In this document: positions 3,136 through 62,702 of the stretch, piece after piece
How positions within the stretch are numbered: position 1 is the stretch's first letter
Layout: the number at the start of each line of letters is the position of its first letter
Origin: Lentimicrobiaceae bacterium
GTDB taxonomy: Bacteria > Bacteroidota > Bacteroidia > Bacteroidales > F082
Direction of reading: 5' to 3'
Assembly: GCA_015061315.1 (NCBI GenBank)
Contig: SUWV01000004.1
Coordinates: 1 to 64,000 of the forward strand
Length of the DNA: 64,000 nt
Translations under genes and position numbers: made by a program
The notes under the pieces: model-generated
The model's input: only the letters and a program-made list of their open reading frames with translations
The model's database searches: none
What the model was told of the DNA's origin: nothing

Positions 3136-4548
3136 CTATCTTCTCTTAGATTTTATAGATTGTGTAACTTCCCAGTGGCCGTTATTTCCTCTACCTATGT
3201 ATTTGACATGTGGCATCTTCGCTATGTGACGTTTGATTGTTTTAGATGTTTTATCAGATAGTTTTGCCAATTCGTCCGTTGTTATTTTAGGATTAATTCT
3301 TATTTGTTCTTCTATCCATAAATCAAGAGATTTGTCGCTGCTGTGAGGGACATTCTGAGGGACATTCTGAGGGACACTCTGAGGGACATTTAAGTCTTCT
3401 TGTTTGCAATTATTATTAGGAATTTCTGTAAAAAACGACTCGTATTGAGAACGAAAGTTAGGTTGCTTTTCCGTGGAATATCCAGGCAACTTTGCTGTTT
3501 CATTACGTATTTTTCGCAATCCACTACCTCTTTTCTCCATATAACCAAATTGAGTAAACACGTCTGCTATAATAGGATTACGGCGTTTGGAAGGCACCTC
3601 GTTCAAATCCCTATTTTGAATCAGACTACCGTCAAACATACCGCCAGGAGAATATATAACCAAACGATTGTCATAAATATCAATGTGAATCTCACTGCCT
3701 AATATTGAATAATCACGATGTATGAGCGCATTAACCAATGCTTCAAATATGGCACGATCTGAATAATCGGGTGTGTCTAATCGTTTATTTGGTAATTTTA
3801 TCCAGCCTTTTTTATTGTGCAATGTGGTAAATTGAACCCCTGCTTCTAACAATGTGAGCAGATTACCTTGATATTCACGAGAATCTGAAGCATCGTCCTT
3901 TTCAAAACCATCCCAACGTGTACAATACAGACTGGAATGACGATATGGACATTGGTCTGAGAATAATACACCAGCTTGAGTAAGATAACCATCTTCTGTT
4001 ACTAAAGAAAATGATTGTAACAATTTTTGTTCAAAATGTAATCTTGTCTGTTTATTGTAAATTTTTGATAATGCGTCAAATGTCATATCTCCTATTCTGT
4101 ATTCTGTGACCAACGAGTCGTATGTGCGATTCCTTCCTTTCAAAACAAGAGAACTCAGTTGATGTGAGGTGGCGACAACGCTCTCGTCTCCAACACGTAT
4201 AAACGCAGTGCGTGTGCCGCTATTGACATAATAATAAGGAGTCATTTCACCTGCAGGAATATGAACTTCTAATATAGAACGACCGTTATCAGCTGGTTTT
4301 GTTATCAAGTCAAACTCTGGTATTGGATCTATTAAAGCTTTGATGCGGTCGCTGATAAATTCTGTATCTGATTTGACATCATCTAAACCAACTATATCTC
4401 CATTGTCATTTACGCCGAAGACCAAACTGCCACCCATTCCATTAGCAAACGCACTGATGCTTTTGAGCCAACTCTTTGGTTGTTTGCGTTCTACAGATTC
4501 TTTGAAATCGCAGGCAGAATCTTCCCCGTACAGTTGTTTAATTTTCAT
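3136..4548 (-). CDS. Schlafen/AlbA_2-domain ATP-binding protein with wHTH
   Basis: The 470-residue protein has the usual layout of bacterial Schlafen-like (former RecG-like) regulators. An AlbA_2 domain spans residues 10-130 with FKESVERKQP and SAFANGMGGSLVFGV. A GHKL-type ATP-binding domain follows at roughly 240-350, with EALVNALIHRDYS and EKRGSGLRKI. A winged-helix segment ends the protein (TTDELAKLSDKTSKTIKRHI). A tetrapeptide tandem repeat (VPQN/VPQS, near residue 390) encoded by 12-bp units links the last two parts. A clear promoter sits at 4580-4610. Members of this family are often found in defence islands as putative nucleases or regulators. The role here is inferred only. A broken paralogue lies at 38100 and a shorter AlbA_2 gene at 37021. 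Confidence 0.82.
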   Translation of the reverse strand: MKIKQLYGEDSACDFKESVERKQPKSWLKSISAFANGMGGSLVFGVNDNGDIVGLDDVKSDTEFISDRIKALIDPIPEFDLITKPADNGRSILEVHIPAGEMTPYYYVNSGTRTAFIRVGDESVVATSHQLSSLVLKGRNRTYDSLVTEYRIGDMTFDALSKIYNKQTRLHFEQKLLQSFSLVTEDGYLTQAGVLFSDQCPYRHSSLYCTRWDGFEKDDASDSREYQGNLLTLLEAGVQFTTLHNKKGWIKLPNKRLDTPDYSDRAIFEALVNALIHRDYSILGSEIHIDIYDNRLVIYSPGGMFDGSLIQNRDLNEVPSKRRNPIIADVFTQFGYMEKRGSGLRKIRNETAKLPGYSTEKQPNFRSQYESFFTEIPNNNCKQEDLNVPQSVPQNVPQNVPHSSDKSLDLWIEEQIRINPKITTDELAKLSDKTSKTIKRHIAKMPHVKYIGRGNNGHWEVTQSIKSKRR

Positions 4549-22328: not shown

Positions 22329-22826
22329 ATGACAATAACATTATATCACGGATCTTATATAGAAGTTAAAAATCCTTTGGTGAATGTCGGAAGAAAAAAT
22401 CTCGATTTCGGGCAGGGTTTTTATCTTTATAACTCTAAGTCGGAAGCTGAGTCGTGGGCAAAGATTGCATCAAATCGTGAAGGCGATGATGTTAAACCAA
22501 TTGTAAATGTCTATAACTTTGATTATTTCAGGACTAAAAACATAGGCTATCGTTTCAATGAATTTGAAACCTATAATATCGAATGGCTGAATTTTGTCGT
22601 CGATTGCCGCAAAGGTAAAGATGTGTTTTCTGATTATGACATTGTCATCGCTGGCAGCATCGACGACGAGATTGCTAATATCGTTGTGGATTATGAAAAA
22701 GGTGTCATCACCGCTGAACAGGCTCTCGAGCAGTTAAGATATAAAGATGTCAAGCATCAGATTTGCATTTTAAATCAAGAGATTATTGATTATTGTTTGG
22801 AATTTGTTGAAAGTTATACATTATGA
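22329..22826 (+). CDS. DUF3990 protein, probable ADP-ribosyltransferase-like toxin
   Basis: The 165-residue protein starts ITLYHGSYIEVKNPLVNVGR and has LDFGQGFYLYNSKSEAESWA, the hallmark of DUF3990. The YHGS and F-G-x-G-F-Y segments resemble the NAD-binding parts of ADP-ribosyltransferases. DUF3990 genes usually sit beside small DUF3791 partners in Bacteroidetes. Here none is seen and the neighbour is the AbiEii pair, 8 nt upstream, so it may be a cargo or third gene of that unit. The C-terminal region (ITAEQALEQLRYKDVKHQIC) could supply the regulatory part. Its stop overlaps the next start (ATGA). Confidence 0.75.
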   Translation: MTITLYHGSYIEVKNPLVNVGRKNLDFGQGFYLYNSKSEAESWAKIASNREGDDVKPIVNVYNFDYFRTKNIGYRFNEFETYNIEWLNFVVDCRKGKDVFSDYDIVIAGSIDDEIANIVVDYEKGVITAEQALEQLRYKDVKHQICILNQEIIDYCLEFVESYTL

Positions 22827-23959
22827 ACGACAGAATAAAAAACGAGACTCGCGTCTTGTGGGACAAATGTTTTAGCGAGGAAGACAAACGTTTTGTGGAT
22901 TTTTATTTCGAGAAACGATATAACGAAAATGATAATATCTTTATCGAGAAGGACGGCAAAGTCGTCTCTGCATTGCAGCTCATCTCCTACCCTTTCTCTT
23001 ATTATGGCAAGACGATAGGCTGCTCCTACCTATCAGGCTGCTGCACTGATCCTGATTATCGCTCGCAAGGCTTGATGAACGACCTGATCATCAAAGCACT
23101 GAAGCAAGCAAAGAACAACGGCGCTTGTTTCGCAGCTCTTATCCCTGCATCGGAAAGTCTCTTCAACTATTACGCAGGAACTAACTTCGTCACAACTTTC
23201 GATTATTCTAAGATAAGGATTAATTTAAGTCAACAAGTCAACGAGACTACAAGTCAACAAGTGAGCAATTCAGTAATATCAGATTTCCAACAGCTAATAG
23301 CTAATAGCCAACAGCCAACAGCTGATTTTTACGAAGTGTATGAATATTTTAACAATAAAATGAGAGCTCGTAACTGTTGCATCCAGCATAATGAATATGA
23401 TTTTAAAGTCATTACAGACGACTTGGAGTTGTTCGATAATCATCTGCTTGTTGCGAGATATGGAGAAGATATTTGCGGCTTGGCTTTCTGTTATTTAAGA
23501 AACGACGAGATCTATATCAAAGATGTCTTCGCCAAATCGAGTGCTATCTTCAGCGACTTGATATCAGCTGCAGGGAAAATGACGAAAGGCGAAAGTCTAA
23601 AGTCTAAAGCGTCAGAGTCAGTGTCAATAAACATTCTAGTTCCTCCTGTTGCGGGACAGAAGACGCATCGTCTCGGGATGGCGCGTCTTATAGATGCGGA
23701 GACAATGTTACGACTTTACGCGATGTCGCATCCGAAGATGAAAATTGAGATTTCTTTAGTCGATACTATCTTGCCAGAAAACAACGGCACATATTATATT
23801 AATAATGGCACGTTGGATAAGAAAAACTCTATCGGGACAAACGTCGTTGATATTGAGCAGCTGACGCAGGCTTTGTTCGGCTACAAAACAGAAACGCTGC
23901 CCGAGAAGTTAAAAGCGTTTAACAACCAAGCAACGTTTATGAGTCTGATGTTGGATTGA
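22823..23959 (+). CDS. GNAT acetyltransferase with SCP2-like C-terminus and repeat-derived insert
   Basis: This 378-residue protein has an Eis-like plan. The N-terminal GNAT domain includes SYLSGCCTDPDYRSQGLMND, where the acetyl-CoA loop has RSQG. A second GNAT-like half follows, then an SCP2-like C-terminal part (ARLIDAETMLRLYAMSHP). Between the two halves, around residues 135-170, lies a stretch encoded by intergenic-type word repeats (SQQVNETTSQQVS, then QQLIANSQQPTAD). A second short one (ESLKSKASESVS) comes from GTCTAAA words. Both keep the frame and fall where loops are expected, so the enzyme may still fold. The substrate is unknown. Confidence 0.82.
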   Translation: MNDRIKNETRVLWDKCFSEEDKRFVDFYFEKRYNENDNIFIEKDGKVVSALQLISYPFSYYGKTIGCSYLSGCCTDPDYRSQGLMNDLIIKALKQAKNNGACFAALIPASESLFNYYAGTNFVTTFDYSKIRINLSQQVNETTSQQVSNSVISDFQQLIANSQQPTADFYEVYEYFNNKMRARNCCIQHNEYDFKVITDDLELFDNHLLVARYGEDICGLAFCYLRNDEIYIKDVFAKSSAIFSDLISAAGKMTKGESLKSKASESVSINILVPPVAGQKTHRLGMARLIDAETMLRLYAMSHPKMKIEISLVDTILPENNGTYYINNGTLDKKNSIGTNVVDIEQLTQALFGYKTETLPEKLKAFNNQATFMSLMLD

Positions 23960-24026
23960 GATTGTTCTGATTTGAACATTTTCTTTCCTTGTTCGTTTGT
24001 CATATCAAACGAAACATCATCAGGTT

Positions 24027-25553
24027 ATGAGACCTTTTTTACTTTTATTAACGGGTTTAATAAGTCAACAAATCAACGGGACTACGAGTCGACAAGCTGA
24101 GTCGCTGAGTTATAATGACACAGTGTCGCAAAGTTCAACAGCTACGAGCCAAGATCTGACAGCTAATATAGATTTCAGAACAGCTGTCAGATTGATGCTC
24201 GAGAACAACAACGCCATCAAAGCTGCTGAGAAAAATACCGAGTTGGCAAGACGTCAGTCGCAGCTCATCAACGCGAGCTGGTTCCCAACAATCACGATGA
24301 CTGGTACTTACGCCATGATGTCGAATAAGATCAGCGTTAATCAAGAATACGCTCCACTACTCGACCCTCTCAAAGAAAAATATGCCGATGACTTCCTCGT
24401 GCCTAATGTTTTAAATTTCATTTCTAAGGAGTTAGGTGATTTGTCATTTGATGTTCCCGTCATCGACGACGACTTCGGCTCAATAGATTTGGAAGTCATA
24501 TATCCTTTGTTTACAGGAGTTAAAAGAATTTATGCCAATAAGTTAGCCAAAGATAACGAATCGCTTTCGGAGATCACTAAAGAGTCGATTGGTGCAACGA
24601 AATATTTGGAACTTGCCAATATTTATTTTTCTTTAAGTCTTAATGAATCAATGATAAAAGTCCTTAACGAATCTCACGATATGACAAAACATCATTATTC
24701 GCAGGCTGTCAAGATGGAAAATATCGGCATGTTCGACAAAGCAGAACGTCTCATTGTGAAAGTAGCACTCGACGAAAGCGACAGAAATCTCAAAAGCGCA
24801 GAAAATCAGAATGAAGTCTTGAAGAATGCTCTGTATACTATTATAGGACTACGAGACAACAAGTCAACAAGTCAACAAGTTGGTCAGCAAGTCGACAATA
24901 CAACAGACAACGGACAAAACATTTCTACTTCCACTTCATTGTTTCTCAATGAACAATATCCGTCATTAGATTGGTTTAAAGATATGATGCGTAAAAACTC
25001 TTACGTATACAAACAGTCGGAGCTTCATAATGATATTTCTAAAAATACTTTAAGAATGAGTAGGTCTAATTATTTCCCGGTTATTTCAGTCTTTGGCAAA
25101 CAGACAATCGCTTCGTATCATGTCCCTAACAACCTGATACCTAATACTGTTGGCGGTATAAATCTCGCTTGGGATATTTTCGATGGACTTGCGAGAGAGC
25201 GTAACATACAGATGACTAAGATAGAATCTGAGATTATCAGCGAGACGCAGCAGAACCTGAAAAATGAATTGGAAATAGCTGTCGATGAATGGCATGCCAA
25301 TCTTAAGCAAGCTGTCGTCAATGCAAAAGATTTACAATCCTCATTGGATTTAGCGGAAGAAGTCTATAAGATAAGAAAGAAATCATTTGCCGAAGGTCTA
25401 TGCACATCGCAGCAAGTCCTTGACGCATTAAATCTTTTAAACAAGACTAAGTTATTGTTGCTCACGACCTATTTTGAATACGACATCGCTTTGGCGAACC
25501 TATGCTGTCTCTGCGGAATACCAGAATATTTCGAAGCGTTTATCAATGAATAG
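24027..25553 (+). CDS. TolC-type outer-membrane efflux protein
   Basis: About 508 residues. It begins MRPFLLLLTGLI and then has the repeat-derived SQQINGTTSRQAE where the signal-peptide cleavage region should be. Two OEP domains follow (FRTAVRLMLENNNAIKAAEK; KSFAEGLCTSQQVLDALNLL), with the long helical and beta-barrel pattern of TolC channels. A second repeat insert (NKSTSQQVGQQVDNTTDNGQ) sits between them. The track start is TTG 23997; the ATG 24027 gives a proper hydrophobic leader. It is the first gene of a four-gene export operon and would form the outer-membrane exit duct. Confidence 0.85.
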   Translation: MRPFLLLLTGLISQQINGTTSRQAESLSYNDTVSQSSTATSQDLTANIDFRTAVRLMLENNNAIKAAEKNTELARRQSQLINASWFPTITMTGTYAMMSNKISVNQEYAPLLDPLKEKYADDFLVPNVLNFISKELGDLSFDVPVIDDDFGSIDLEVIYPLFTGVKRIYANKLAKDNESLSEITKESIGATKYLELANIYFSLSLNESMIKVLNESHDMTKHHYSQAVKMENIGMFDKAERLIVKVALDESDRNLKSAENQNEVLKNALYTIIGLRDNKSTSQQVGQQVDNTTDNGQNISTSTSLFLNEQYPSLDWFKDMMRKNSYVYKQSELHNDISKNTLRMSRSNYFPVISVFGKQTIASYHVPNNLIPNTVGGINLAWDIFDGLARERNIQMTKIESEIISETQQNLKNELEIAVDEWHANLKQAVVNAKDLQSSLDLAEEVYKIRKKSFAEGLCTSQQVLDALNLLNKTKLLLLTTYFEYDIALANLCCLCGIPEYFEAFINE

Positions 25554-25580: not shown

Positions 25581-26597
25581 TTGATAATGAAAATATCTAA
25601 CAAAATATTATTTACGGCATTTGTGGTTATATTATTGATAATATTGACCTTATCTATTCTCGGCATTTTCTTGATGAAGGAAAGAGACATTGTTTTGCAA
25701 GGACAGATTGAAGCTGAAGAATATAATATTTCAGGTTTGTTGCCTGGAAGGATTGAAGAGATATATGTCGAAAAAGGACAGCATGTAAAAAAAGGCGACA
25801 TCTTAGTACATATTATCTCTAATGAAGTTATTGCTGAATATGAAGCTCAGAAATCGTTGGAGAAAGCAGCTAAGCTACAGAGCGAGAAACTCGACTCAGG
25901 CTCACGTAAGGAATTGGTTTCCATTGCCAAGGAATTATGGGACGGCACTAAAGCCGATTTAAACTTAGCAAAAACGACTTACGAAAGAATATCCGCCTTG
26001 TATGAAGATTCTATCGTCAGCCAGCAGCGCAGAGATGAAGTCGAGGCAATTTACAAGTCAGCATTGGCAGCTGAACGTGCTGCATATCATCAATATAAGA
26101 TTGCTAAAGAAGGTGCGCAGGAACAAGATAAAGCATCGGCAAAAGAGATGGCAAAAGCTGCTCGAAGTAACGCCGAAGTCGTGAAGGCACTGCTGAAAGA
26201 CTCAAAACTCGCAGCTCCTATTTCTGGACAGGTAGCTACTATAGCATTGAACAAAGGAGAGTTATCGTCGATAGGTACTTCCATCATGACCATTGTCGAT
26301 ATAGAAAACCCTTATTTAGTCATGAATGTACGCGAGGATTTGTTAAAATATTTTAAGATGGGAAACGACATCTTATGCGAGATACCAGCCTTAGGATTGA
26401 AAGACATTCCTTTCAGCATCAACTACATATCTCCACTCGGCAGCTTCGCCACATGGAAAGCCACCAAAGACAGCGGCGGCTACGACCTAAGAACATTTGA
26501 AATACAAGCAGTTCCAAAATATAAAATAGAAGACCTACGACCTGGAATGACATGTTTGTTGACAATTGACAATGAACAATTTACAATGAACAATTAA
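25581..26597 (+). CDS. HlyD-type membrane fusion protein
   Basis: The 338-residue periplasmic adaptor has one N-terminal membrane anchor (residues 8-32). A lipoyl-like half motif follows (GLLPGRIEEIYVEKGQHVKK), then a helical hairpin of about 100 residues and the matching second half (KLAAPISGQVATIALNKGEL). It would bridge the ABC-2 permeases to the TolC channel. The last residues (LTIDNEQFTMNN) are encoded by the TTGACAATGAACAATTTAC word repeat that continues past the stop, so the C-terminus has been rewritten by a repeat. It lies 27 nt after the TolC gene. Confidence 0.88.
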   Translation: MIMKISNKILFTAFVVILLIILTLSILGIFLMKERDIVLQGQIEAEEYNISGLLPGRIEEIYVEKGQHVKKGDILVHIISNEVIAEYEAQKSLEKAAKLQSEKLDSGSRKELVSIAKELWDGTKADLNLAKTTYERISALYEDSIVSQQRRDEVEAIYKSALAAERAAYHQYKIAKEGAQEQDKASAKEMAKAARSNAEVVKALLKDSKLAAPISGQVATIALNKGELSSIGTSIMTIVDIENPYLVMNVREDLLKYFKMGNDILCEIPALGLKDIPFSINYISPLGSFATWKATKDSGGYDLRTFEIQAVPKYKIEDLRPGMTCLLTIDNEQFTMNN

Positions 26598-26622
26598 CAA
26601 TTAACAATTAACAATTAACAAT
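26559..26622. repeat. AACAATTAACAATT word array crossing a stop codon
   Basis: Reiterated TTGACAATGAACAATT / AACAATTAACAATTAAC words start within the HlyD coding sequence and continue 25 nt past its stop codon. Confidence 0.75.
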
Positions 26623-26682
26623 GTATAATATGTAATTATCTCATTGACTTATTGTCTTAATGACTTATTGACTTAAAATAAA

Positions 26683-27849
26683 ATGAACAAAACGAATCAT
26701 CATAGTGGATTTTTTGCTGTCGTCAAGAGAGAGTGCGGTATCTTGGTATCGAGGCCTCTGTATCTTTTCACGGCATTGATATTTCCATTATTCGCTTTGT
26801 TTTTCATGACGACGATTTTTGGCAACGGCATGATCGACAGCATTCCTGTAGGCATAGTCGATGAGGATAACAGTACGATGTCGCGTGATATAGAGCGGCT
26901 TTGCTCGGCGGTACCCGAAATTCGTGTGACAGAAAAATTCTCCAACACCGCCGAGGCTCGCGATGCTCTTCTCTCAAAGAAAATATACGGCTATCTCATA
27001 ATACCGCATGACTTCCAGAAAGACGTGGAGGCAAACAGAAACACCACGCTAACACTATGTTATCATTACGCTTTTCTGAGCGTCGGCTCCGAGGTGATGC
27101 AAGGTTTCCTCAACGCATTAAGAATCATAGCTGTCGCTCCATTACAACAGACGACCGACTTCCTCGGTATCGACGACGAGACATTAGAGACGTTGGCATC
27201 GCCCATCAGCATAGCAGCTCATCCTTTATATAACCCTGCCTTAAATTACTCTTCATATCTCACATTCCCTTACTTCTGGGTTCTGTTTCAAATCTTGATT
27301 TTACTTAACATAGCATATTCCTTCGGCATGGATTTCAAAGACATAAGGAAGACAAGAGAATGTCTGAAAGCTGGTAACAATAAAATGCTCAATGTGGTCT
27401 TCGGAAAACTTACACCTTATATATTAATATTTACCGCCATAGCCATCTTCGCCGACGTACTGATGTTCGACATCATGGACTTCGACTTACATGCTAACAT
27501 CGTCTCAATAATAGCAGTCTGTTTTCTGTTCATCATGGCGACATGTTCTGTCTCGCTTTTCCTTTTCTCTATATATCCCAACCTGCCGATTATCATCAGT
27601 TTCATCTCGATGTTCGGCTCGTTGGGAGCCACTTTTGCCGGCGTGACTTTCCCCGTAAACGCGATGTACCCAATCTTCGAAAAATTATCACTGCTCTTCC
27701 CTATCCGTCACTTCGTCGTAATAACCGACTACCTTCGCTATGAAAGCCACGCCTTTTTATATTGCTGGAAATCAGTCTTGATATTAATAAGCTTTAACAT
27801 TCTGATAATAATAGCGAGTTTACTTTTAAAATTAAGAATGAAAAATTAA
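26683..27849 (+). CDS. ABC-2 type export permease (first)
   Basis: The 388-residue protein has one N-terminal membrane helix (LYLFTALIFPLFALFFMTTIF), a periplasmic domain of about 130 residues, and five further C-terminal helices. This is the YhhJ/YbhS-type ABC2_membrane_3 plan. It pairs with the second permease at 27931. Its C-terminus LLLKLRMKN is encoded by AAAATTAAGAATGAA words that continue downstream as an array (27830-27876). No ABC ATPase is encoded in the operon. The exporter would need a distant ATPase or work differently. Confidence 0.87.
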   Translation: MNKTNHHSGFFAVVKRECGILVSRPLYLFTALIFPLFALFFMTTIFGNGMIDSIPVGIVDEDNSTMSRDIERLCSAVPEIRVTEKFSNTAEARDALLSKKIYGYLIIPHDFQKDVEANRNTTLTLCYHYAFLSVGSEVMQGFLNALRIIAVAPLQQTTDFLGIDDETLETLASPISIAAHPLYNPALNYSSYLTFPYFWVLFQILILLNIAYSFGMDFKDIRKTRECLKAGNNKMLNVVFGKLTPYILIFTAIAIFADVLMFDIMDFDLHANIVSIIAVCFLFIMATCSVSLFLFSIYPNLPIIISFISMFGSLGATFAGVTFPVNAMYPIFEKLSLLFPIRHFVVITDYLRYESHAFLYCWKSVLILISFNILIIIASLLLKLRMKN

Positions 27850-27930
27850 GAATGAAGAATTAAGAATGAAGAATTACAAACATCTCATAACTTATTATCT
27901 TATTGACTCATTGACTTGTAGACTTAAAAC

Positions 27931-29079
27931 ATGAACGACATTATCAAAATAATATGCTCTGAATTTAAGGCGATCGGGACCAACATTCCGATTCTTATTG
28001 TATTGATTCTCGGCAATGTAGGTTACGGTTTTCTATATAACTTACTATATAACACAAACGTATATCGCGAAGCACCTATTGCAATCGTTGATATGTCGCA
28101 GAGCGATTTGAGCCGTCATTTCATTGATTATATTGACGCTACACAGCAAGTCGATGTCGTCATGAAGACTCAAGACTTTCATCAAGCCAAAGAAAAACTC
28201 GTCGAGAAAGAGATTATCGGCTTCCTTTATATTCCTTCCGAGCTGAAAGAAAATGTGATGCGAGGCAGACAGACCGAATGTACCATTTACGGCTCAACGC
28301 TTTCATTCTTAGATTATCTTAACATTTCAGAAGCTGTCAATTTCGCTTGCTTGGAAATTAATTCAGAGTTACTCCCTGAGATGATAAAATCTCTTAATAT
28401 GATTGACGTTCTTTTTCTTGCTAACGACAAGGCTGTCAATATCGTAAGCGAGCCGCTTTATAACAGCACTGAAGGTTACGGCACATATCTCATTCCGCCA
28501 GTGATGGTGATTATAATTTTCCAGACCATGATGATAACAATGGCGATGAGGCTTGGAGGAGAAAAAGTCAACAAGACCACAAGACCACAAGTCATTAAGT
28601 CATATAAAATCGTTCTCGGCAAAGCAATCACCAATGTGATGATTTATATTGTATTTTCGGTTTTCTTCTTAGGCTTGCTACCATTGATATTTCATCTTCC
28701 ACATCTCGGTAATTACTTAAACATCACAATCATGATGATACCATATCTTTTTGCGACTGCGTTCTTCTGTCTGTGTTTAGCTCCATTTTTCACCGATGCC
28801 GACATGCCATTGTTTCTCATCGTCTTCATGTCGGTGCCATTGGTCTTTCTGACTGGCATCTCCTACCCTTTGGAGCTTATGCCTTGGCATTGGAAGATTC
28901 TGCATTATCTCTTTCCTGTCGCACCCGCCACCTTAGCCTTTGTGAAGTTAGACTGTATGGGCGGCGATCTAAGTAATATACGTCCAGAACTGCTGACACT
29001 CTGGATACAATGCGCTGTTTATTTCTTAGTCGCGGTTTTAGTATGGAGAAGAGGGACAAGATGTATTAATAACTTATAA
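27931..29079 (+). CDS. ABC-2 type export permease (second)
   Basis: The 382-residue paralogue of the preceding gene has the same plan: one helix, a periplasmic domain with APIAIVDMSQSDLSRHFIDY, then five helices including FLTGISYPLELMPWHWKILH near the end. A cytoplasmic or loop stretch after the second helix (GGEKVNKTTRPQVIKS) is encoded by GTCAACAAGACCACAAG repeats. It is the last gene of the TolC-HlyD-permease-permease operon, and a strong inverted repeat follows. Confidence 0.87.
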   Translation: MNDIIKIICSEFKAIGTNIPILIVLILGNVGYGFLYNLLYNTNVYREAPIAIVDMSQSDLSRHFIDYIDATQQVDVVMKTQDFHQAKEKLVEKEIIGFLYIPSELKENVMRGRQTECTIYGSTLSFLDYLNISEAVNFACLEINSELLPEMIKSLNMIDVLFLANDKAVNIVSEPLYNSTEGYGTYLIPPVMVIIIFQTMMITMAMRLGGEKVNKTTRPQVIKSYKIVLGKAITNVMIYIVFSVFFLGLLPLIFHLPHLGNYLNITIMMIPYLFATAFFCLCLAPFFTDADMPLFLIVFMSVPLVFLTGISYPLELMPWHWKILHYLFPVAPATLAFVKLDCMGGDLSNIRPELLTLWIQCAVYFLVAVLVWRRGTRCINNL

Positions 29080-31516: not shown

Positions 31517-31901
31517 CTTGTAAAAAAGTTAGTTAATAATTAAGTTTTATAAAGTGTTTGTTAAAATTCATGTCTCGCAAATATATAAATATTTTGTCAA
31601 TGATGTAAGGCTTTAATTTATTTTTATCACACTTTATTTATTCAGTTGATTTGGGCGTTCCGGCAAGCCGTCGGGCTTTCCGCTATATCTTTTTCCGCTA
31701 CGCTCCAAAAGGATGCCGCTCCAATCCCTAACGCATTGGCGGCTACTGAAAATAAGTAATATCTTTTGCGTATCCCAACGACGTAATCGTGATGACTACT
31801 GAGACCCAAATCTTCACATCTACATCTTTAACATTTTTTAAGTTAACGGACAACATTAGTTTATAAATCACTATCTTTGCATAACAAATAATTTCAGATA
31901 A
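31517..31901. other. Intergenic region with GC-rich repeat copy B
   Basis: The region holds a CAAATATA (minus TATATTTG) box for the T9SS gene at 31578-31585 and a GC-rich repeat at 31653-31746. A TTTAACATTTTTTAAGTTAACG segment follows, with TATCTTTG at 31872-31879 before the oxidoreductase gene. No gene is seen. Confidence 0.55.
31653..31746 (+). repeat. GC-rich dispersed repeat, copy B
   Basis: GGGCGTTCCGGCAAGCCGTC to TCCAATCCCTAACGC, near-identical to copy A except for the small CAAG change near the start and the TACG/TGCG loop. Confidence 0.8.
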
Positions 31902-34191: not shown

Positions 34192-34765
34192 GGATGTTTT
34201 TTATCTCCACGTATCGCGATGTATTTGCACGTATATTTTTGGAATCTGAGAAATTGAGAATCTGAAAATCTGAGAATTTATTTCTGCTAAATCCATGAAA
34301 ATCCGTTGAATCCGTGGGAGAATGGATTAAGACCCACAGATGGCACAGATTGACACAGATTATTTTGTCCACGAATGGGCGTAAATTATACGCTAATGAT
34401 TTTTATCTCCACGTATCGCGAGGTATCTGAGCGAATATTTTCCGAGCTTGTCTCGAATGTGATACGAAAGAGGTTTAACCACAGATAAGACAGATTTATA
34501 GAATCGAAAGTTGAGATTTGAAAACTAAAAATTATGCATTGTGAATTATGCATTATAAATTAATCTTGGGCGTTCCGGCTATCGCCGTCGGGCTTTCCGC
34601 TATATCTTTTTCCGCTACGCTCCAAAAGGATGCCGCTCCAATCCCTAACGCGACCTCCCCGATTAAAAATTAAAAGTTCTATTATTGAAAATTTAAGAAT
34701 TTTATGGTGATATAATATATAATGATTTAACTATTGTTAGAGTTCAGGTATTTTTTAATTACGCG
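34192..34765. repeat. Repeat-filled region after the FKBP gene
   Basis: No gene is visible. Contents: a partial CGTATCGCGATG element (34198-34245), AATCTGAGAAT words, a CCGTTGAATCCGTGGG and CACAGATGGCACAGATT segment, a full CACGAATGGGCG element (34366-34447), ATTATGCATT words, and GC-rich repeat copy C (34568-34652). Confidence 0.6.
34568..34652 (+). repeat. GC-rich dispersed repeat, copy C
   Basis: Near-identical to copy A from GGGCGTTCC to CCCTAACGC; the following GCATGGCGGCTGCC part is absent. Confidence 0.8.
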
Positions 34766-36819: not shown

Positions 36820-36960
36820 GGGCGTTCCGGCTATCGCCGTCGGGCTTTCCGCTATATCTTTGCTCGCTCAACCTCCACCCCGCTTCCAAAATCCCGTCCC
36901 CGTTCCCAAAAGAAGCTCGCAAAGGATGCCGCTCCAATCCCTAACGCATGGAGGCTGCTA
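36820..36960 (+). repeat. GC-rich dispersed repeat, copy D with long variable centre
   Basis: The flanks match the other copies, but the centre is about 50 nt longer and closes with CTTTGC/GCAAAG instead of CTTTT/AAAAG. Confidence 0.8.
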
Positions 36961-37020
36961 TAAAAGTGAAAGGGTAAAATCAGACAATAAGGGATTAGGA
37001 AAAAACATTCAAATATCAAG

Positions 37021-38099: not shown

Positions 38100-38618
38100 T
38101 TACTTATTATTTGTTAAGCTATTTTTCAAAGCAATACCCTTTGCTGTGAGACGATATTTCTGATATTGACTATTAGGCTTATCTGGAATAGTAAGTTCTA
38201 TATAACCATTACTAATAGCAGGATTCAAATAATCAGTTCTAAAATAATCTCTATTCTTGATAGATAGTAATTCTTGTAATTCAGAACGTCCCATCTCTCC
38301 TATCAATGCATAAACAAGTTTCTCAACTTGCGCACTTGCATGGTCACTTGCATGGTCACTTGCATGGTCATGAGCACTAATAGGCAAAGTAATGCGTATG
38401 AAGTTGTCGGTAAACTTGAAGCAATCTTCACCGTATGCACGCAAGATACGAGGAATGCCGGAGCCTAACGACTCCACCAACTCCACATCACGGTAGATAT
38501 CAATTCCAAAATAGATGTATCCGCCCTCCTTGTAGTTAAGGAACGCCACAACCTCCTTCTCAATATCAAGTTCAGGAGTTAATTATCTTTTATATTCTAT
38601 GCGGTTGGTTTCAGTCAT
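38100..38618 (-). pseudogene. Broken Schlafen/AlbA_2 ATPase gene
   Basis: From an ATG at 38618 the frame reads MTETNRIEYKR, then a TAA where E is expected, then LTPELDIEKEVVAFLNYKEG. An internal deletion joins YFGID directly to VELVESLGSGIPRIL of the ATPase domain. The middle of the gene, about 200 or more codons, is missing. The C-terminal part keeps a tetrapeptide repeat (DHAS three times, 12-bp units) and the winged-helix end. It is non-functional as an ATPase. The track start at 38549 is an internal GTG/ATG. Confidence 0.85.
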
Positions 38619-51967: not shown

Positions 51968-53095
51968 TTAAAACACATATTGCAACCCAATCTGATAACC
52001 TACATACATTCGCTGAGCATTATCGTTTGTGTCTTTGCTCCAGAGGTATTTCTTTGGCAACAAATTATCGGAATCGACGTAATTAGAATTAAGATAGTTA
52101 AAACTCACACCACCAAAAACATTATAATGATTCCAGAATGTAACAGAAGGTGCGAGAAGGTACGCAAAATTATAACAAGTCTTGTCGTTTGAAAAACCGA
52201 CGGATGTTGCTTTAAATTCATTATTGATTTCAAACAAATGATTTACAGGAATATGAATACCATAACCTGCCTCTGCCATAATCTTACTTCCGTCATTCAC
52301 CTTGACATTATAACCGACACCCAAAATACCGTATGTATATTTGCCTCCCGATCTGAATGACAAGACTGTGTTATTCAAGATGTCGTAAGAAAGAGAGACA
52401 CCCATTTTACCATTTTTTATGATATTGATAAAAGCAATAGGAAAATCGCTATCGTCAGCAATATTGATTATCGATGCGAATTGAACGCCTTTGACATTCT
52501 TCGCGACGTTCATCACTCCAGCGAATTGAAATCCTGTGAAATCACCTGAAATATTGCTTATGCCGCCTAACATAAGACCTTTAGCTAAACCAGAATAATT
52601 TACGATGCCTCCAATCTGCAACCCGATATTCGAATCTTTTGTAATATTCGCAATACCACCCAACATAAGACCTTTAGTCGAACCTGAATAATTTGCGATG
52701 CCACCGATTTGCAATCCGATATTCGAATCTTTCGTAAAGTTTGATATGCCGCCTATTTGAATTCCATTATAAAAACCCGCTGTATTTGCAATGCCTGCCA
52801 CCGCTATTCCATATCCTTTATTACCGATGTGATTTGAGATTCCCGCAATCTGCAAGCCTGTCGCGTCATTTGCCACGATATTGCTCAAACAAGACAAAGA
52901 CAAACTTCTCTCATTCTTCGAGATTCCTACCAACAAATTGATAGAAAATGCGTTTGTATAACTCTTCGCCTCTTTCATATTTATCGTACTCAATGGAAAT
53001 CCGAAATTTATCTGAACTGGACGAAATTTATCCTCTTGAGAAAAAACATTAAAAGACAGCAACAAAGATACTATAAGGATGATGATTTTCTTCAT
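51968..53095 (-). CDS. LA_2272-type surface repeat protein
   Basis: The 375-residue protein has a signal peptide (KKIIILIVSLLLSFNVFSQ). The middle holds tandem units of about 20 residues (GLQIGGIANYSGSTKGLMLG, then GGISNISGDFTGFQFAGVMN), the LA_2272 surface repeat. A C-terminal beta-rich part ends in an aromatic residue (GLQYVF), typical of outer-membrane proteins. It probably sits in the outer membrane. Its function is unknown. It lies between two blocks of lysine-fermentation genes but has no evident link to them. Confidence 0.82.
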   Translation of the reverse strand: MKKIIILIVSLLLSFNVFSQEDKFRPVQINFGFPLSTINMKEAKSYTNAFSINLLVGISKNERSLSLSCLSNIVANDATGLQIAGISNHIGNKGYGIAVAGIANTAGFYNGIQIGGISNFTKDSNIGLQIGGIANYSGSTKGLMLGGIANITKDSNIGLQIGGIVNYSGLAKGLMLGGISNISGDFTGFQFAGVMNVAKNVKGVQFASIINIADDSDFPIAFINIIKNGKMGVSLSYDILNNTVLSFRSGGKYTYGILGVGYNVKVNDGSKIMAEAGYGIHIPVNHLFEINNEFKATSVGFSNDKTCYNFAYLLAPSVTFWNHYNVFGGVSFNYLNSNYVDSDNLLPKKYLWSKDTNDNAQRMYVGYQIGLQYVF

Positions 53096-56081: not shown

Positions 56082-56269
56082 CGTTACAGAAATAATATTT
56101 TTTTGATTGATTCAAGCACAAATTACACAGATTATATTATCCACGAATGGGCGCGAATTTTACGCTAATGATTTTTATCTACTCATATCGCAGGTATCAG
56201 CGTGGATATAAAACTATACATTGTTAATTGTTAATTGTTAACTGTTAACTATTAATTGTACATTGTTTT

Positions 56270-56364
56270 GGGCGTTCCGGCGAAGCCGTCGGGCTTTCCG
56301 CTATATCTTTTTCCGCTTCGCTCCAAAAGGATGCCGCTCCAATCCCTAACGCAGAGGGGCTGCT
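56270..56364 (+). repeat. GC-rich dispersed repeat, copy F
   Basis: GGGCGTTCCGGCGAAGCCGT to CCAATCCCTAACGC, as copy A with GAAG and TTCG changes in the first and second loops. Confidence 0.8.
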
Positions 56365-56429
56365 ATAAAAAAATCTCAATATCTAAAATAAAAGAAAATA
56401 ATAAGAATCAGAGGGCATTTGAACGTATC

Positions 56430-57415: not shown

Positions 57416-58582
57416 CTAAACAACGCTTTTCTCAAAAATCTTATCGTAATCTTTATCGTATTGCAACGAATGTATCTCACCATCACAAACAGCGGTAAAA
57501 ACTGAAACAAGTTCTTTCTCGTTCTTGTCTTCGCGAATGTATTGTTTCTTGAATTTTGGTTTTATGGTTTGAGATTCCATTTCTTTGAGCTTGCGTTTCA
57601 AGGTCTTCTCGGCTGTTTCACCGAAAGCTACATGCCACCAATATTTCGCCAAGATTTCTTTCTTAGTGTTATAAATTATGAGATGTACCGCTGGATGCAT
57701 GACCTTATTGCCGTTATGAATCTCAAAATGAAGCGCACGCCCTACAATGTTACCTTGCTCGTTTACAAGAGGAAGAAACTCTGTCATTGACGCTGACTTT
57801 GACATGGACGCATTCAATGCGTCCCTACATGATGTTTGTACGGGCACATTTAATGTATCCTTGGGGACTTTGACTATCGACTCTGACGCTGACTCTGACT
57901 TTGATACCAACTCAGGAACAGACTCAGAACTTATTGACTTGTGGTCTTGTAGTCTTATCGACTTCTCCTCTCGTTGACTTGTTGTCTCGTTGTCTTGTGG
58001 TCTTATTGACTTTTCCTCTCGTCGACTTGTTGTCTCGTTGACTTGTGGTCTTATTGACTTTTCCTCTTGGCGACTTAGTGACTCGGTGACTTGGTGACTT
58101 AGTGACTCGTTGACTTGTTGACTTATTTCAAAAATCTCAACAATTTCCGTTCCTCTCGGCACCTTAATCTCAAACTTATCGCCTTTCTTCTTCCCTATCA
58201 ATGCTTTGGCTATCGGCGAAATAAACGAAATCAAACCTTTTGAGGCATCGGCTTCGTCAACGCCAACAATACGAATGACTTTATCGTTGTACTTAACATA
58301 CATTCCGAAACTGACAACATCGGGATTGGCTTTGGTATTATCAATCAAGACTGCACTGTTGATGCGTTCTGATAAAAGTCGCATCTTTGCATCTAAGTAG
58401 TTTTTAGTCACATAGTTAGAACCAGCGTCTGTCCATTCTTTTTTAAGTGTTTCCATCTCGTCCTGAAGTTTTTTCAATCCTTCCGGCGTGACGTAATTAG
58501 GAGTCCCCGATGGCAAAAAAGCTCTCGGCAACACCATCGGAACTTCTTCCTGATCACCTTCTTTTACAAAACCGCGACTCAT
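57416..58582 (-). CDS. GreA/GreB-like factor joined to a degenerate Nudix domain by a repeat-derived linker
   Basis: The 388-residue protein has three parts. Residues 1-160 resemble GreA/GreB-family transcription factors: YVTPEGLKKLQDEMETLKKE, then a C-terminal FKBP-like part with SPIAKALIGKKKGDKFEI. Residues 160-270 are a linker encoded by word repeats (ESLSHQVTESLSRQEEKSIR and a GGACGCATTCAATGCGTCC palindrome giving RDALNAS). Residues 270-388 look like a Nudix fold (HPAVHLIIYNTKKEILAKYW). The box is degenerate (GETAEKTLKRKLKEM lacks the usual REUxEE), so hydrolysis is doubtful. The fusion is unusual, and the linker suggests repeat-mediated joining of two genes. Confidence 0.75.
   Translation of the reverse strand: MSRGFVKEGDQEEVPMVLPRAFLPSGTPNYVTPEGLKKLQDEMETLKKEWTDAGSNYVTKNYLDAKMRLLSERINSAVLIDNTKANPDVVSFGMYVKYNDKVIRIVGVDEADASKGLISFISPIAKALIGKKKGDKFEIKVPRGTEIVEIFEISQQVNESLSHQVTESLSRQEEKSIRPQVNETTSRREEKSIRPQDNETTSQREEKSIRLQDHKSISSESVPELVSKSESASESIVKVPKDTLNVPVQTSCRDALNASMSKSASMTEFLPLVNEQGNIVGRALHFEIHNGNKVMHPAVHLIIYNTKKEILAKYWWHVAFGETAEKTLKRKLKEMESQTIKPKFKKQYIREDKNEKELVSVFTAVCDGEIHSLQYDKDYDKIFEKSVV
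57790..58130. repeat. GTTGACTTGTTGTCTCG repeat tract inside the GreA-like gene
   Basis: About 340 bp of near-tandem words (GACTTGTTGTCTCGTTGACTT, GACTCTGACGCTGACTCTG) and a perfect palindrome GGACGCATTCAATGCGTCC (57806-57824), all in one open frame of the gene. Confidence 0.8.
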
Positions 58583-58589
58583 CTTTTTT

Positions 58590-58668
58590 TAAAGTCTATA
58601 AGACAACGAGTCAACAAGTCAACAAGATGCTTGTGGTCTCGTTGACTTGTTGTCTTGTAGTCTTTTAG
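58590..58668. repeat. GTCAACAAG repeat between GreA-like and small gene
   Basis: AAGACAACGAGTCAACAAG, followed by its near inverted copy CTCGTTGACTTGTTGTCTTG, so the tract can also fold as a hairpin. Confidence 0.7.
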
Positions 58669-58859
58669 TTAAACATCATCTCTACTTTGCCAAATCGTGT
58701 CTCGACGCAGTCGTATGAAGCAGCGAAACTCATTATCGTACTCAAGGCTTTCTTACTTGGTTTTTCGTTTCTGTAAGTCTCTTTAAGACTTTTTCTGATT
58801 TGGCTTTCTAAAGAATTTTCTGTTGAATAATAAAGTGTAGATTTTATATCCATAGGCAA
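58665..58859 (-). CDS. Small hypothetical protein downstream of the sigma factor
   Basis: A 64-residue, mostly helical protein (YYSTENSLESQIRKSLKETY; KALSTIMSFAASYDCVETRF). It lies 56 nt after the ECF sigma gene on the same strand. In Bacteroidetes similar small proteins follow this ECF gene, but the function is unknown. It is not an obvious anti-sigma factor since no membrane segment is present. Its stop borders the GTCAACAAG tract. Confidence 0.6.
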   Translation of the reverse strand: MPMDIKSTLYYSTENSLESQIRKSLKETYRNEKPSKKALSTIMSFAASYDCVETRFGKVEMMFN

Positions 58860-59704: not shown

Positions 59705-62551
59705 ATGAAGAAGTTAGAATCAATCAGCATACAGGGAGCAAGAGTTAATAACTTAAAAAACATAAGTTTAAGTATTCCCAAGAACAAGTTCGTAGTGATA
59801 ACAGGCTTGTCGGGTTCAGGCAAGTCATCGCTCGCTTTCGACACTATTTATGCCGAAGGTCAGCGTCGTTATGTGGAAAGTCTGAGTGCTTACGCCCGTC
59901 AGTTTTTGGGACGTATGACGAAACCCGATGTCGATCTGATTACCGGACTGTCTCCTGCCATCGCGATTGAGCAGAAAGTCAACTCGAGCAACCCACGCTC
60001 TACAGTCGGCACAAGCACAGAGATTTACGAATATCTCAAACTTCTTTACGCAAGAATTGGTCGCACCTTCTCCCCTATCTCCGGCATCGAAGTCAAACGT
60101 CATCAAATCAATGATGTGATAGATTTTATCCTCGAACAGAAAGGTTGCGCCGTTTATATTTTATCGCCTATAATTTTGCCTGAAGGAAGAAAAATCGAAG
60201 AACATTTCAACATTCTTCTGCAACAAGGTTTTAACCGTCTTTACATAGAAAATAAGATGGTACGTATCGAGGATTTTCTCAAAGAAAAGAACTTCGACAA
60301 TATTAATAATGTAAGGATTCTTATCGACAGATTGAAGGTCAACGACAAGACTTCTGAGTTGATTCCGCAGATTTCCGATTCGGTACAGACCGCCTTTTAT
60401 GAAGGCAAGGATAGCTGTATCATATTGGTTGACAACACCGAACATTATTTCTCTTCACGTTTTGAAGCAGACGGAATAACTTTTGAGACGCCTACAACAC
60501 ATCTTTTCTCTTTCAATAATCCTTACGGCGCTTGTCCGAGATGCGAAGGCTTCGGCGACATTATCGGCATCGATCCCGACTTGGTCATTCCCGACAAATC
60601 GCTGTCGATTTACGACAATGCTGTGGCGTGTTGGCGCGGCGATAAAATGAGTGCGTGGCGCGACCAACTGATTCGCAACGCTCGTCATTTCGACTTCCCT
60701 ATCCATAAGCCTTATTATGAACTGACGAAAGAACAGAAAGAACTTCTTTGGAAAGGCAACAGATACTTTGGAGGCATCGAAGATTTCTTCAGAGAAGTTG
60801 AATCACAATCATATAAGATTCAATATCGAGTGATGTTATCGCGTTATCGTGGAAAGACGACATGTCCTGAATGTAACGGATTACGTCTTAGAAAAGAGGC
60901 GAGTTACGTCAAGATTAACGGCAAGAGCATCAGCGAGTTATGCGAGATGCCTTTGTCGAAATTAAAAATATTTTTCGATGAATTGACTTTGACAAAGACA
61001 GAACACTACATTGCAGAACGTCTCTTAACAGAAATTAAGAATCGTCTTAACTTCTTGATAGAAGTAGGTTTAGAATATCTCACCTTAAATCGTGCAGCCA
61101 ACACTCTTTCTGGCGGTGAGTCACAGAGGATCAACCTCGCCACTTCATTAGGTAGCACTCTCGTCGGCTCCACATATATCTTAGACGAGCCAAGTATCGG
61201 ACTTCACTCGCGTGATACGCAACGACTTATAAAGGTCTTACGCAGATTACGCGACATCGGCAACACAGTCATCGTGGTTGAACACGACGAGGAGATAATT
61301 CGCAGCGCCGACCATATAATCGACATTGGACCTTACGCTGGCGTCAATGGCGGCGAAGTAGTTTTTGAAGGCGACATTGAGAAGATGATGAAGATAAACG
61401 CTGACCATGACTCTAACAATGACAATGAAACTAAGTCGATGACGGCGAAATATATTTGTGGCGAGAAGCAGATTCCTGTGCCAACGAAACGACGTAAGTG
61501 GAACAACGCAATTGAGTTTGTCGGATGCGCCGAGCATAACTTAAAAAACATTAACGTCAAGATTCCATTGAATGTGATGACTGTCGTTACTGGCGTCAGC
61601 GGCTCTGGCAAATCTACATTGGTCAACGAAATCATTTATAAATCCTTAAAGAAACATTTTGAAGGAACGTCAGACAAGGTCGGTTCTTTTGGCAAGATAC
61701 AAGGCAGCCTGATGGCGATACAGAATGTAGAATTTATAAATCAAAATCCAATAGAACGTTCATCGCGTTCAAATCCTGTCACTTACGTCAAGGCTTTTGA
61801 TGACATACGCCAGCTTTTCGCCGAGCAGAAGTTAGCTAAGAACCGTAACTTGAAACCCGGATATTTCTCTTTCAACGTTGCTGGAGGTCGCTGCGACAAC
61901 TGTCAGGGCAGCGGTACACTGAAGGTCGAGATGCAGTTCATGGCTGACATATATCTGAAATGCGACGTATGTAATGGCAGCCGCTACAAAGAAGAGGCGC
62001 TTGAGATAAAATTCAAAGGCAAGAACATCAGCGACATCTTGAATATGAGTATTGATGAAGTCGTTGAGTTTTTAAATAACAACAAAGAAGGAGAATTTAA
62101 GACTATCATCGAGCGTATCATTGCGAAGATGAAGCCTTTACAAGATGTTGGTCTCGGTTATCTTCAGGCGGGGCAGCCATCATCGACGCTGAGTGGCGGG
62201 GAAGCGCAGCGTATCAAACTCGCTTCTTTCCTCATCAACGGCAACAACGAAAAACCGACATTATTTATCTTCGACGAGCCGACAACAGGACTTCATTTCC
62301 ATGACATCAACAAACTGTTAAAAGCTTTCGACGCATTAATTAATAATGGACATTCGCTCATCGTCATCGAACACGACCCTGATGTAATCAAGGTTGCAGA
62401 TTGGATCATCGACTTAGGACCAGAAGGCGGCGACAAAGGCGGAGAGCTCGTCTTTGAAGGGACACCAGAAGAATTGAAGAAGTGCGAGAGATCGTTTACG
62501 GCGAGAGTGTTAAAAGTCAACAAGTCAACAAGTCAACAAGTCAAAGAGTAA
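59705..62551 (+). CDS. uvrA: Excinuclease ABC subunit UvrA
   Basis: The 948-residue UvrA has two ABC halves: Walker A GLSGSGKSSLAFDT and GVSGSGKSTLVNEI, signatures TLSGGESQRINLA and TLSGGEAQRIKLA, and Walker B ILDEPSIGLH and IFDEPTTGLH. Zinc modules are CPRCEGFGD and CDNCQGSGTLKVEMQF. It finds bulky DNA damage and loads UvrB. The start matches the usual IQGARVNNLKNI beginning. The tail VNKSTSQQVKE is encoded by AGTCAACAAGTCAACAAG repeats (62514-62545) and is absent from the family consensus, so the end of the gene has been altered by a repeat. Confidence 0.96.
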   Translation: MKKLESISIQGARVNNLKNISLSIPKNKFVVITGLSGSGKSSLAFDTIYAEGQRRYVESLSAYARQFLGRMTKPDVDLITGLSPAIAIEQKVNSSNPRSTVGTSTEIYEYLKLLYARIGRTFSPISGIEVKRHQINDVIDFILEQKGCAVYILSPIILPEGRKIEEHFNILLQQGFNRLYIENKMVRIEDFLKEKNFDNINNVRILIDRLKVNDKTSELIPQISDSVQTAFYEGKDSCIILVDNTEHYFSSRFEADGITFETPTTHLFSFNNPYGACPRCEGFGDIIGIDPDLVIPDKSLSIYDNAVACWRGDKMSAWRDQLIRNARHFDFPIHKPYYELTKEQKELLWKGNRYFGGIEDFFREVESQSYKIQYRVMLSRYRGKTTCPECNGLRLRKEASYVKINGKSISELCEMPLSKLKIFFDELTLTKTEHYIAERLLTEIKNRLNFLIEVGLEYLTLNRAANTLSGGESQRINLATSLGSTLVGSTYILDEPSIGLHSRDTQRLIKVLRRLRDIGNTVIVVEHDEEIIRSADHIIDIGPYAGVNGGEVVFEGDIEKMMKINADHDSNNDNETKSMTAKYICGEKQIPVPTKRRKWNNAIEFVGCAEHNLKNINVKIPLNVMTVVTGVSGSGKSTLVNEIIYKSLKKHFEGTSDKVGSFGKIQGSLMAIQNVEFINQNPIERSSRSNPVTYVKAFDDIRQLFAEQKLAKNRNLKPGYFSFNVAGGRCDNCQGSGTLKVEMQFMADIYLKCDVCNGSRYKEEALEIKFKGKNISDILNMSIDEVVEFLNNNKEGEFKTIIERIIAKMKPLQDVGLGYLQAGQPSSTLSGGEAQRIKLASFLINGNNEKPTLFIFDEPTTGLHFHDINKLLKAFDALINNGHSLIVIEHDPDVIKVADWIIDLGPEGGDKGGELVFEGTPEELKKCERSFTARVLKVNKSTSQQVKE
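62514..62545. repeat. AAGTCAACAAGTCAACAAG repeat at the uvrA end
   Basis: AGTCAACA units in tandem encode the last residues of UvrA. Confidence 0.75.
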
Positions 62552-62702
62552 TAACACCTCAAATGTGTCAAAAAAAACGACATTATTTTTTTTATAATTT
62601 GATAATAAAATATCATTATAATAATTATATTTGCAGAAAGCTATTTAACAAGCTCTGAACTTATAATTAGACATTTAATAACCATTTAAACAATAAAACA
62701 TC

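Follow-up and report, generated by a model that had tools for sequence, protein, structure and literature searches.

Degenerate 7- and 8-bp tandem repeats in intergenic regions and in frame within genes of a Lentimicrobiaceae bacterium

Repeat arrays in the genes of the window

The window analyzed in this study, a stretch of 64,000 nucleotides, is part of contig 38 of a draft genome of 2.47 Mb and 95% completeness (G000, the source genome). Its genes were confirmed by Pfam matches to GNAT (PF13527), outer-membrane efflux protein (PF02321), HlyD, ABC2_membrane_3, the GreA_GreB C-terminal domain, and UvrA. According to the original prediction, the short words that fill gaps between genes also lie inside these genes. 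This was confirmed at essentially every position, and the words were far above chance. Occurrence of the same words between and inside genes also held in general, with the exception of AGCTAATAGC, whose copies in the window lie only inside the GNAT gene.

The GNAT-family acetyltransferase gene (22823-23959, plus strand) carries an octamer array of the units AGTCAACA AGTCAACG AGACTACA AGTCAACA at 23227-23262, which codes for SQQVNETTSQQV, and in the same inter-domain region a heptamer array (AGCTAAT/AGCCAAC) at 23285-23327. A heterogeneous exact match of 35 nt links the octamer array to an unrelated gene at L047:14322. The words of this linker differ in 8 of 9 orthologs; the copy in G027 is near-identical, probably owing to homologous recombination. 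A second site in this gene (23576-23615, plus strand), consisting of AAAGTCT heptamers (23592-23609) followed by hexamer-like GTCAGTG words, is different or missing in the orthologs. Comparison of the GNAT protein with the PDB gave a weak match only. In the TolC-like gene (24024-25553, plus strand), degenerate octamer and heptamer words follow the signal-peptide region at 24062-24170, where words and length differ across species, and an octamer array at 24842-24930 (words at 24857-24880) occupies the linker right after the first OEP repeat, which ends at residue 275. The inserts in this linker differ across six species, with octamers in the source genome and G027, GPSTSSG...PEPVEG in G009, SQQ heptamer words in G077, and little in G064 and G071. 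A PDB search with the TolC-like protein returned no match. ABC permease 2 contains an octamer array at 28557-28606 (plus strand) in the loop following MAMRLGGEK, and octamer-type words of differing sequence were found there in six of six species. The GreA-like gene (57416-58582) contains a 200-nt octamer array with 24- and 48-nt higher-order copies (57929-58128, minus strand), which separates the GreA_GreB C-terminal domain (residues 87-154) from a conserved C-terminal part. In relatives this linker holds TELVEVTESYELPSTGSG (G071) in place of the octamers of the source genome, and in the sister clade G067, G070 and G076 (L262-L264) other dispersed repeats (VISTEAKRSGEI-type, RAEGARNDS).

Three further arrays are located at gene ends. 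At the end of the HlyD gene, AACAATT heptamers in sense orientation are followed by inverted octamers (TTGACTTA) that reach into the HlyD-ABC gap (26557-26677, plus strand), and the stop codon at 26597 lies within the array 26562-26629. Similarly, heptamers (AATTAAG/AATGAAG) and then inverted octamers extend from the end of ABC permease 1 into the gap before ABC permease 2 (27828-27925, plus strand), the gene terminating within the array 27828-27876. In UvrA, an octamer array at 62506-62555 (plus strand, words at 62514-62544) has replaced the ancestral end VLKL-stop by KVNKSTSQQVKE-stop. Among the relatives, G090 and G027 have VLKL-stop; other words are found in G091 and after the stop codon of G094. 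Since the stop codons of these three genes lie in or just after a 3' array, retention of the reading frame is trivial there, and an intact frame was rejected as functional evidence at such sites. The true internal inserts are those of the GNAT, TolC-like, ABC permease 2 and GreA-like genes.

Several other repeats were noted in the course of this analysis. Two window genes contain exact or near-exact 12-nt repeats (3344-3390 and 38333-38370, encoding VPQN and DHAS peptides), which in contrast to the 7- and 8-nt arrays are of the ordinary codon-multiple type, and the gene 51968-53095 holds a repeat of 93 nt at 52569-52737 (1.8 copies that are 86% alike). The known Flavo-1 RNA family (RF01705) is represented at 31665-31748, 34582-34668, 36834-36963 and 56283-56368, in all cases on the minus strand. 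The commonest non-periodic repeat in our 779-kb sample of the source genome, made of the pieces GGATTGGAGCGGCATCC, GCGGAAAGCCCGACGG and GCCGGAACGCCC at about 18-21 loci, presumably is the Flavo-1 element. A second dispersed element is a GTAG-led imperfect palindrome (GTAGAGACGTATCAATTACA...TGTAATTGCTGCGTCT) at L071:13711-13754, L046:3890-3925 and many other positions, including the TolC-HlyD and HlyD-ABC gaps of G077, G027 and G009. It looks like a REP element, yet a Y1 transposase was not found in the source genome.

Abundance, word families and distribution

The 779-kb sample comprised the window and 40 stretches of the source genome with 619 predicted genes and 87.6% coding sequence; genes outside the window were predicted with a simple hexamer caller. 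In total, 342 merged degenerate tracts of period 6, 7 or 8 were found in this sample. Their intergenic share of 14.6 kb corresponds to approximately 15% of the intergenic DNA. Within 62 of the predicted genes lie 81 of the tracts, and 36 genes (approximately 6%) contain an internal tract, i.e. one at least 30 residues away from either gene end. Of the exact arrays, defined as at least two copies plus three bases, 118 had period 7 (21 in coding and 97 in intergenic DNA, as compared to 0 after shuffling) and 87 had period 8 (28 coding and 59 intergenic, as compared to 1 after shuffling); periods 5, 6 and 9-13 were close to background. Degenerate tracts of period 7 (31 coding, 166 intergenic) and period 8 (56 coding, 123 intergenic) were absent from the shuffles. 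The coding arrays of the source genome thus have periods 7 and 8, with no preference for multiples of three. In the sister species G064, period 6 occurs in addition.

The families AACAATT (43) and AAGAATT (12) make up most of the intergenic arrays. Examples of this pool in the window are the AACAATT-family heptamer arrays at 611-670, just downstream of the gene 652-2655, and at 56210-56267, both on the minus strand. Both words contain TAA and were found at gene ends only, with none inside genes, where AACAAGAC, AACAAGTC, AACGAGAC and AACAGCC are dominant. The main octamer family follows the model AG[AT]C-N-[AC][CT][AG], adjacent units being mixed and not identical. Octamers in genes are mostly in sense orientation (42:6); the AGTCA types have TGA in antisense. 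Arrays in genes are filtered for in-frame insertion and for stop codons. Octamers 3' of genes are predominantly in sense (40:12) and those 5' of genes in antisense orientation (42:8). Adjacent octamer tracts were convergent in 16 cases and divergent in none, which shows that intergenic arrays often form inverted pairs.

Word counts in coding and non-coding DNA and in related genomes showed that the octamer words are not unique to the source genome but form a vocabulary common to about 11 species of one clade. The octamer family has 392 copies in the source genome, 6-256 in most other species of the clade, none in G091, and 0-6 in the rest of the genus. The source genome has 31 copies of an 18-mer of two GTCAACAA units and none of its reversed control. 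The reversed-control word (TGAACAAC octamers) was abundant in loci of G010, G109, G079, G087, G095 and G004, indicating that other clades of the genus have their own octamer vocabulary. A search for very close species among the carriers of this word yielded only loci of 75-85% identity. Most matches of a 25-mer of GTCAACAA came from metagenome-assembled genomes of Bacteroidales, with rare ones from Planctomycetota, Spirochaetia, Anaerolineaceae, Nocardia and others. The heptamer array (AACAATT)3 is present in 6 of 396 Bacteroidota genomes including the source genome, which has 59 copies. Octamer arrays are spaced about 2.1 kb apart along G077:C6 9250-26575, which suggests a tandem gene family with one array per gene. 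The literature search found no paper in which the GAGCTTGTCGAAGG element is printed.

The two defence operons, which are supported by PADLOC, were described in the original prediction as free of the words, and spread was proposed to be confined to the resident genome. Their coding sequences indeed contain no tract as compared to 3.0 expected (P(0)=0.048). This count, together with one match of the GTCAACAA 25-mer in 2.9 million viral contigs, is weakly supportive of such a confinement.

Turnover and exchange of words between loci and species

For octamer words in genes, starts in the three codon phases numbered 29, 26 and 32. This even distribution over the codon phases argues for DNA repeats and not for selected linkers. 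Furthermore, the orthologous linkers of about 10 related species hold different peptides derived from different DNA words, the opposite of identical peptides in unrelated codons, which had been named beforehand as the mark of selected linkers. Even codon phase, the periods 7 and 8, and the differing orthologs support the view that repeats at the DNA level entered genes in frame, and on these grounds selected linker peptides were ruled out as their origin. The predicted minimum free energy of all tracts showed no excess folding over control segments. Hairpins are therefore limited to a subset of the tracts, and the same comparison ruled out a general selection for hairpins.

Coding and intergenic tracts draw on a shared pool. 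For coding tracts, the remainder of the same genome yielded longer matches than did non-orthologous regions of the sister genome, both in the source genome (52:19, p=9e-5) and in G064 (46:15, p=4e-6). With only intergenic tracts as target, the ratios were 54:17 and 48:17, respectively. Heterogeneous 28-mers were common to 29 pairs of unlinked tracts without similar flanks as compared to 3.0 pairs after permutation of the unit order; 8 of the 29 were coding-intergenic pairs. For 31-mers, 18 pairs were found versus 0.9 in permuted arrays, and omission of the flank filter resulted in 34 pairs of shared 28-mers versus 2.1. Such unit orders, common to unlinked loci far more often than in permutations, indicate that array segments were copied between loci, and local slippage alone is insufficient to account for them. 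Of the mechanisms considered in the original prediction, slippage by itself thus fell short, and the spread of a replicating, micro-satellite-like element came closer.

Between the source genome and G064, 44 tracts could be compared with both flanks placed. The intergenic inverted pair of octamer arrays at 58592-58672 is wholly replaced in G064 by another octamer family, the array being inverted in both species and the flanks 98.7% identical. A 54-nt array at L067:5081 between tRNA-like sequences is present in the source genome and cleanly missing in G064; at this one clean empty site no target-site duplication was evident. At coding sites of the two species octamers were swapped for heptamers or hexamers in frame, and in the pairwise comparisons indels at insert sites were in frame. 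Insert sites therefore persist while their words are replaced. Such comparisons are between species, the closest sharing about 86-96% nucleotide identity, so that single mutational events are below their resolution.

Four insert sites were found in the gene for a family-5 solute-binding protein (L080:1290-3251). In the sister clade (G070, G067 and G076) inserts are missing and each site has 4-6 residues. In the species of the clade, the sites are up to 49 residues long and only a few are short; the words are nearly all different, and all inserts are in frame. An alignment with a relative from the PDB placed the inserts between conserved blocks and breaks around three of the four sites. Many of the inserts at sites 1, 3 and 4 consist of two inverted arms. 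Across species, the arm words co-vary at two of these sites, as judged from 2 (site 4) and 308 (site 3) of 20,000 permutations, and the value for site 1 was not significant (2,440 of 20,000). An insert of this gene that is common to G090 also contains the sole GAGCYTGTCGAAGG copy of the source genome (L080 about 2674-2687, G000:C37). Related genomes have up to 141 copies of this word, and the single copy may be a relic of an older generation of repeats.

Origin of the arrays and relation to known repeats

The explanation we favor, with a probability of roughly 0.6, is that arrays born by slippage are spread by ectopic copying and filtered for frame and stop codons. The degenerate 7- and 8-bp tandem words, together with the 6-bp words of the sister species, would constitute one genome-wide pool. 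DNA-polymerase slippage would lengthen and shorten arrays, and copies of segments including mixed unit orders would pass from one locus to another, the simplest route being ectopic template switching or gene conversion in which the repeats provide short homology. As to the enzymology, we infer that arrays originate by slippage and spread by one of these two processes. Copying of segments between loci would let each genome drift to its own vocabulary. Inserts presumably derive from intergenic DNA in most cases. To survive in a gene, an array would have to be free of in-frame stop codons, have a net length that is a multiple of three, and lie in a tolerated loop, an inter-domain linker or the C-terminus; in loops the inserts are probably neutral. 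An occupied site would remain a landing place at which words are repeatedly swapped for others of the resident pool. Hairpin arms can be both created and repaired by template switching (PMC8794818, PMC8604942), and the arm words of inverted arrays would be expected to change together if it copies one arm to the other. Several observations run counter to this explanation. Replacement by an unrelated family at one site is not simple slippage and would need several events, and the low-copy recurrence of the same word sets in other phyla is unexplained by the copying model. The non-significant arm co-variation at site 1 of the solute-binding protein and the folding energy of the tracts, which as a whole is no lower than in controls, also count against it. 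A bolder reading, which we put forward only tentatively, is that of self-spreading arrays of short words without transposase, fixed ends or fixed sequence, characterized by repeat-templated copying, inverted arms, species vocabularies and proteome-wide rewriting of loops at the same sites.

A purely local origin, i.e. independent slippage from chance seeds with shared words reflecting a preference of the replication machinery for 7- and 8-mer mutations, would account for the tandem arrangement and for similar low-copy words in unrelated phyla, and the strict periods match the heptamer preference reported for long simple sequence repeats (cited in PMC4679880). We consider it improbable, because unlinked loci have unit order and not just composition in common, sister vocabularies differ sharply (392 versus 71 copies of one octamer pattern), and whole arrays were exchanged for other word families between intact flanks. 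Similarly unlikely is in-frame insertion of a transposable palindromic element with stems of short repeats, comparable to Rickettsia palindromic elements (RPEs) or REPs. The inverted arms with their fixed polarity, the in-frame sites in many genes as known from RPEs, and the clean presence or absence of 54 nt at L067:5081 are in line with such an element, but ends, consensus and length are not fixed, many sites have a single arm, arm sequences are wholly different between species, and the clean empty site lacks an evident target-site duplication. Moreover, the Y1 transposase (PF01797) was found in 7 other genomes searched but not in G064 or in the source genome, the richest in repeats, which weakens a RAYT/REP transposition model.

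It is still less probable that selection acts on a function of the Q/N/S/T-rich linker peptides or of RNA hairpins, from which the DNA repeats would merely result. The position of inserts in loops and linkers, the Q/N/S/T-rich composition of many peptides and the arm co-variation at sites 3 and 4 of the solute-binding protein would fit this assumption. It is hardly compatible with the unrelated peptides at the same sites across species (TSQQV, PELVEG, VPESRSRVPS, ELVEVTESYELPSTGSG), the lack of inserts in the solute-binding protein of the sister clade, codon phases and periods that ignore the triplet, and folding energies that overall are not below those of controls. All compared genomes are draft assemblies, apparently derived from metagenomes, which raises the question of assembly or binning artefacts. 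Given that independent assemblies agree in conserved flanks and uninterrupted frames at these sites, each with genome-typical words, that each genome has hundreds of copies, and that the reversed control is zero in the source genome, such artefacts are extremely improbable as an explanation.

Among known repeats, the nearest intergenic relative of the arrays described here is the TAACTGA heptamer repeat of Beggiatoaceae, cyanobacteria and a few Bacteroidetes, as reported in PMC4679880 and by Mrazek 2007 cited therein. These heptamer repeats, too, are words of 7 bp in tandem that lie mostly between genes, close to where genes begin and end (PMC4679880). Short tandem units of more than chance length with prominent heptamers, which characterize long simple sequence repeats, were also observed here. 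TAACTGA repeats, too, lie occasionally at gene ends or in ORFs and are sporadic across species (PMC4679880). In contrast, the genomes studied here have many coexisting families of period 7 and 8 with degenerate and mixed units, unit orders shared between loci, arms that are often inverted, and inserts that are common in genes (36 of 619) and site-stable across species. While coding arrays of long simple sequence repeats prefer units of 3n, those found here have periods 7 and 8.

For the invasion of genes in frame, the nearest relatives are RPEs and REPs in ORFs. These are likewise dispersed repeats with inverted symmetry that occur in frame in many unrelated genes, and in two Xanthomonas species different repeats were found at about the same site of recB (PMC10969869, PMC3733652). 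However, RPEs are approximately 100-150 bp long with a family consensus, whereas our arrays have units of 7-8 bp without fixed consensus, ends or length, and the hairpin typical of RPEs is confined to a subset of tracts. REPs are palindromes of 20-40 bp with a GTAG or CGTC tag, which the octamer unit model lacks. The repeats of Borgs are also fast-evolving tandem repeats in intergenic regions and ORFs that add protein segments (PMC9879509). Borg ORF repeats have nearly perfect units divisible by three and an independent origin at each site (PMC9879509); the 7- or 8-bp units described here are degenerate, occur in all frames and are common to several sites. Homogenization of hairpin arms by template switching would explain why two inverted arms change in concert, in coding sequence as well; such a change was seen here at sites 3 and 4 of the solute-binding protein and was not significant at site 1. 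The process was described for individual hairpins and inverted repeats of short length, not for genome-wide arrays (PMC8794818, PMC8604942). In the literature searched, no direct precedent for in-frame 7/8-mer repeats in bacteria was found. The phenomenon is an RPE-like invasion with simple-repeat material, of the simple-repeat kind, whose combined features were not found described in that literature.

Simple repeats in bacteria are usually viewed as products of local slippage or as switches of phase variation. Here, the repeat vocabulary of a genome moves between loci and into genes, and the same loops hold different words in about 10 species. In this clade of uncultured gut Bacteroidales, spreading short repeats thus probably keep rewriting tolerated loops of ordinary proteins. 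This bears on the spread of short tandem words in the absence of a transposase, and on the amount of random sequence that is accepted at fixed sites by ordinary proteins, here a transporter, a transcription factor, an outer-membrane factor and a solute-binding lipoprotein. Linkers and C-termini of such proteins in the databases may be read-through of repeats and not conserved features.
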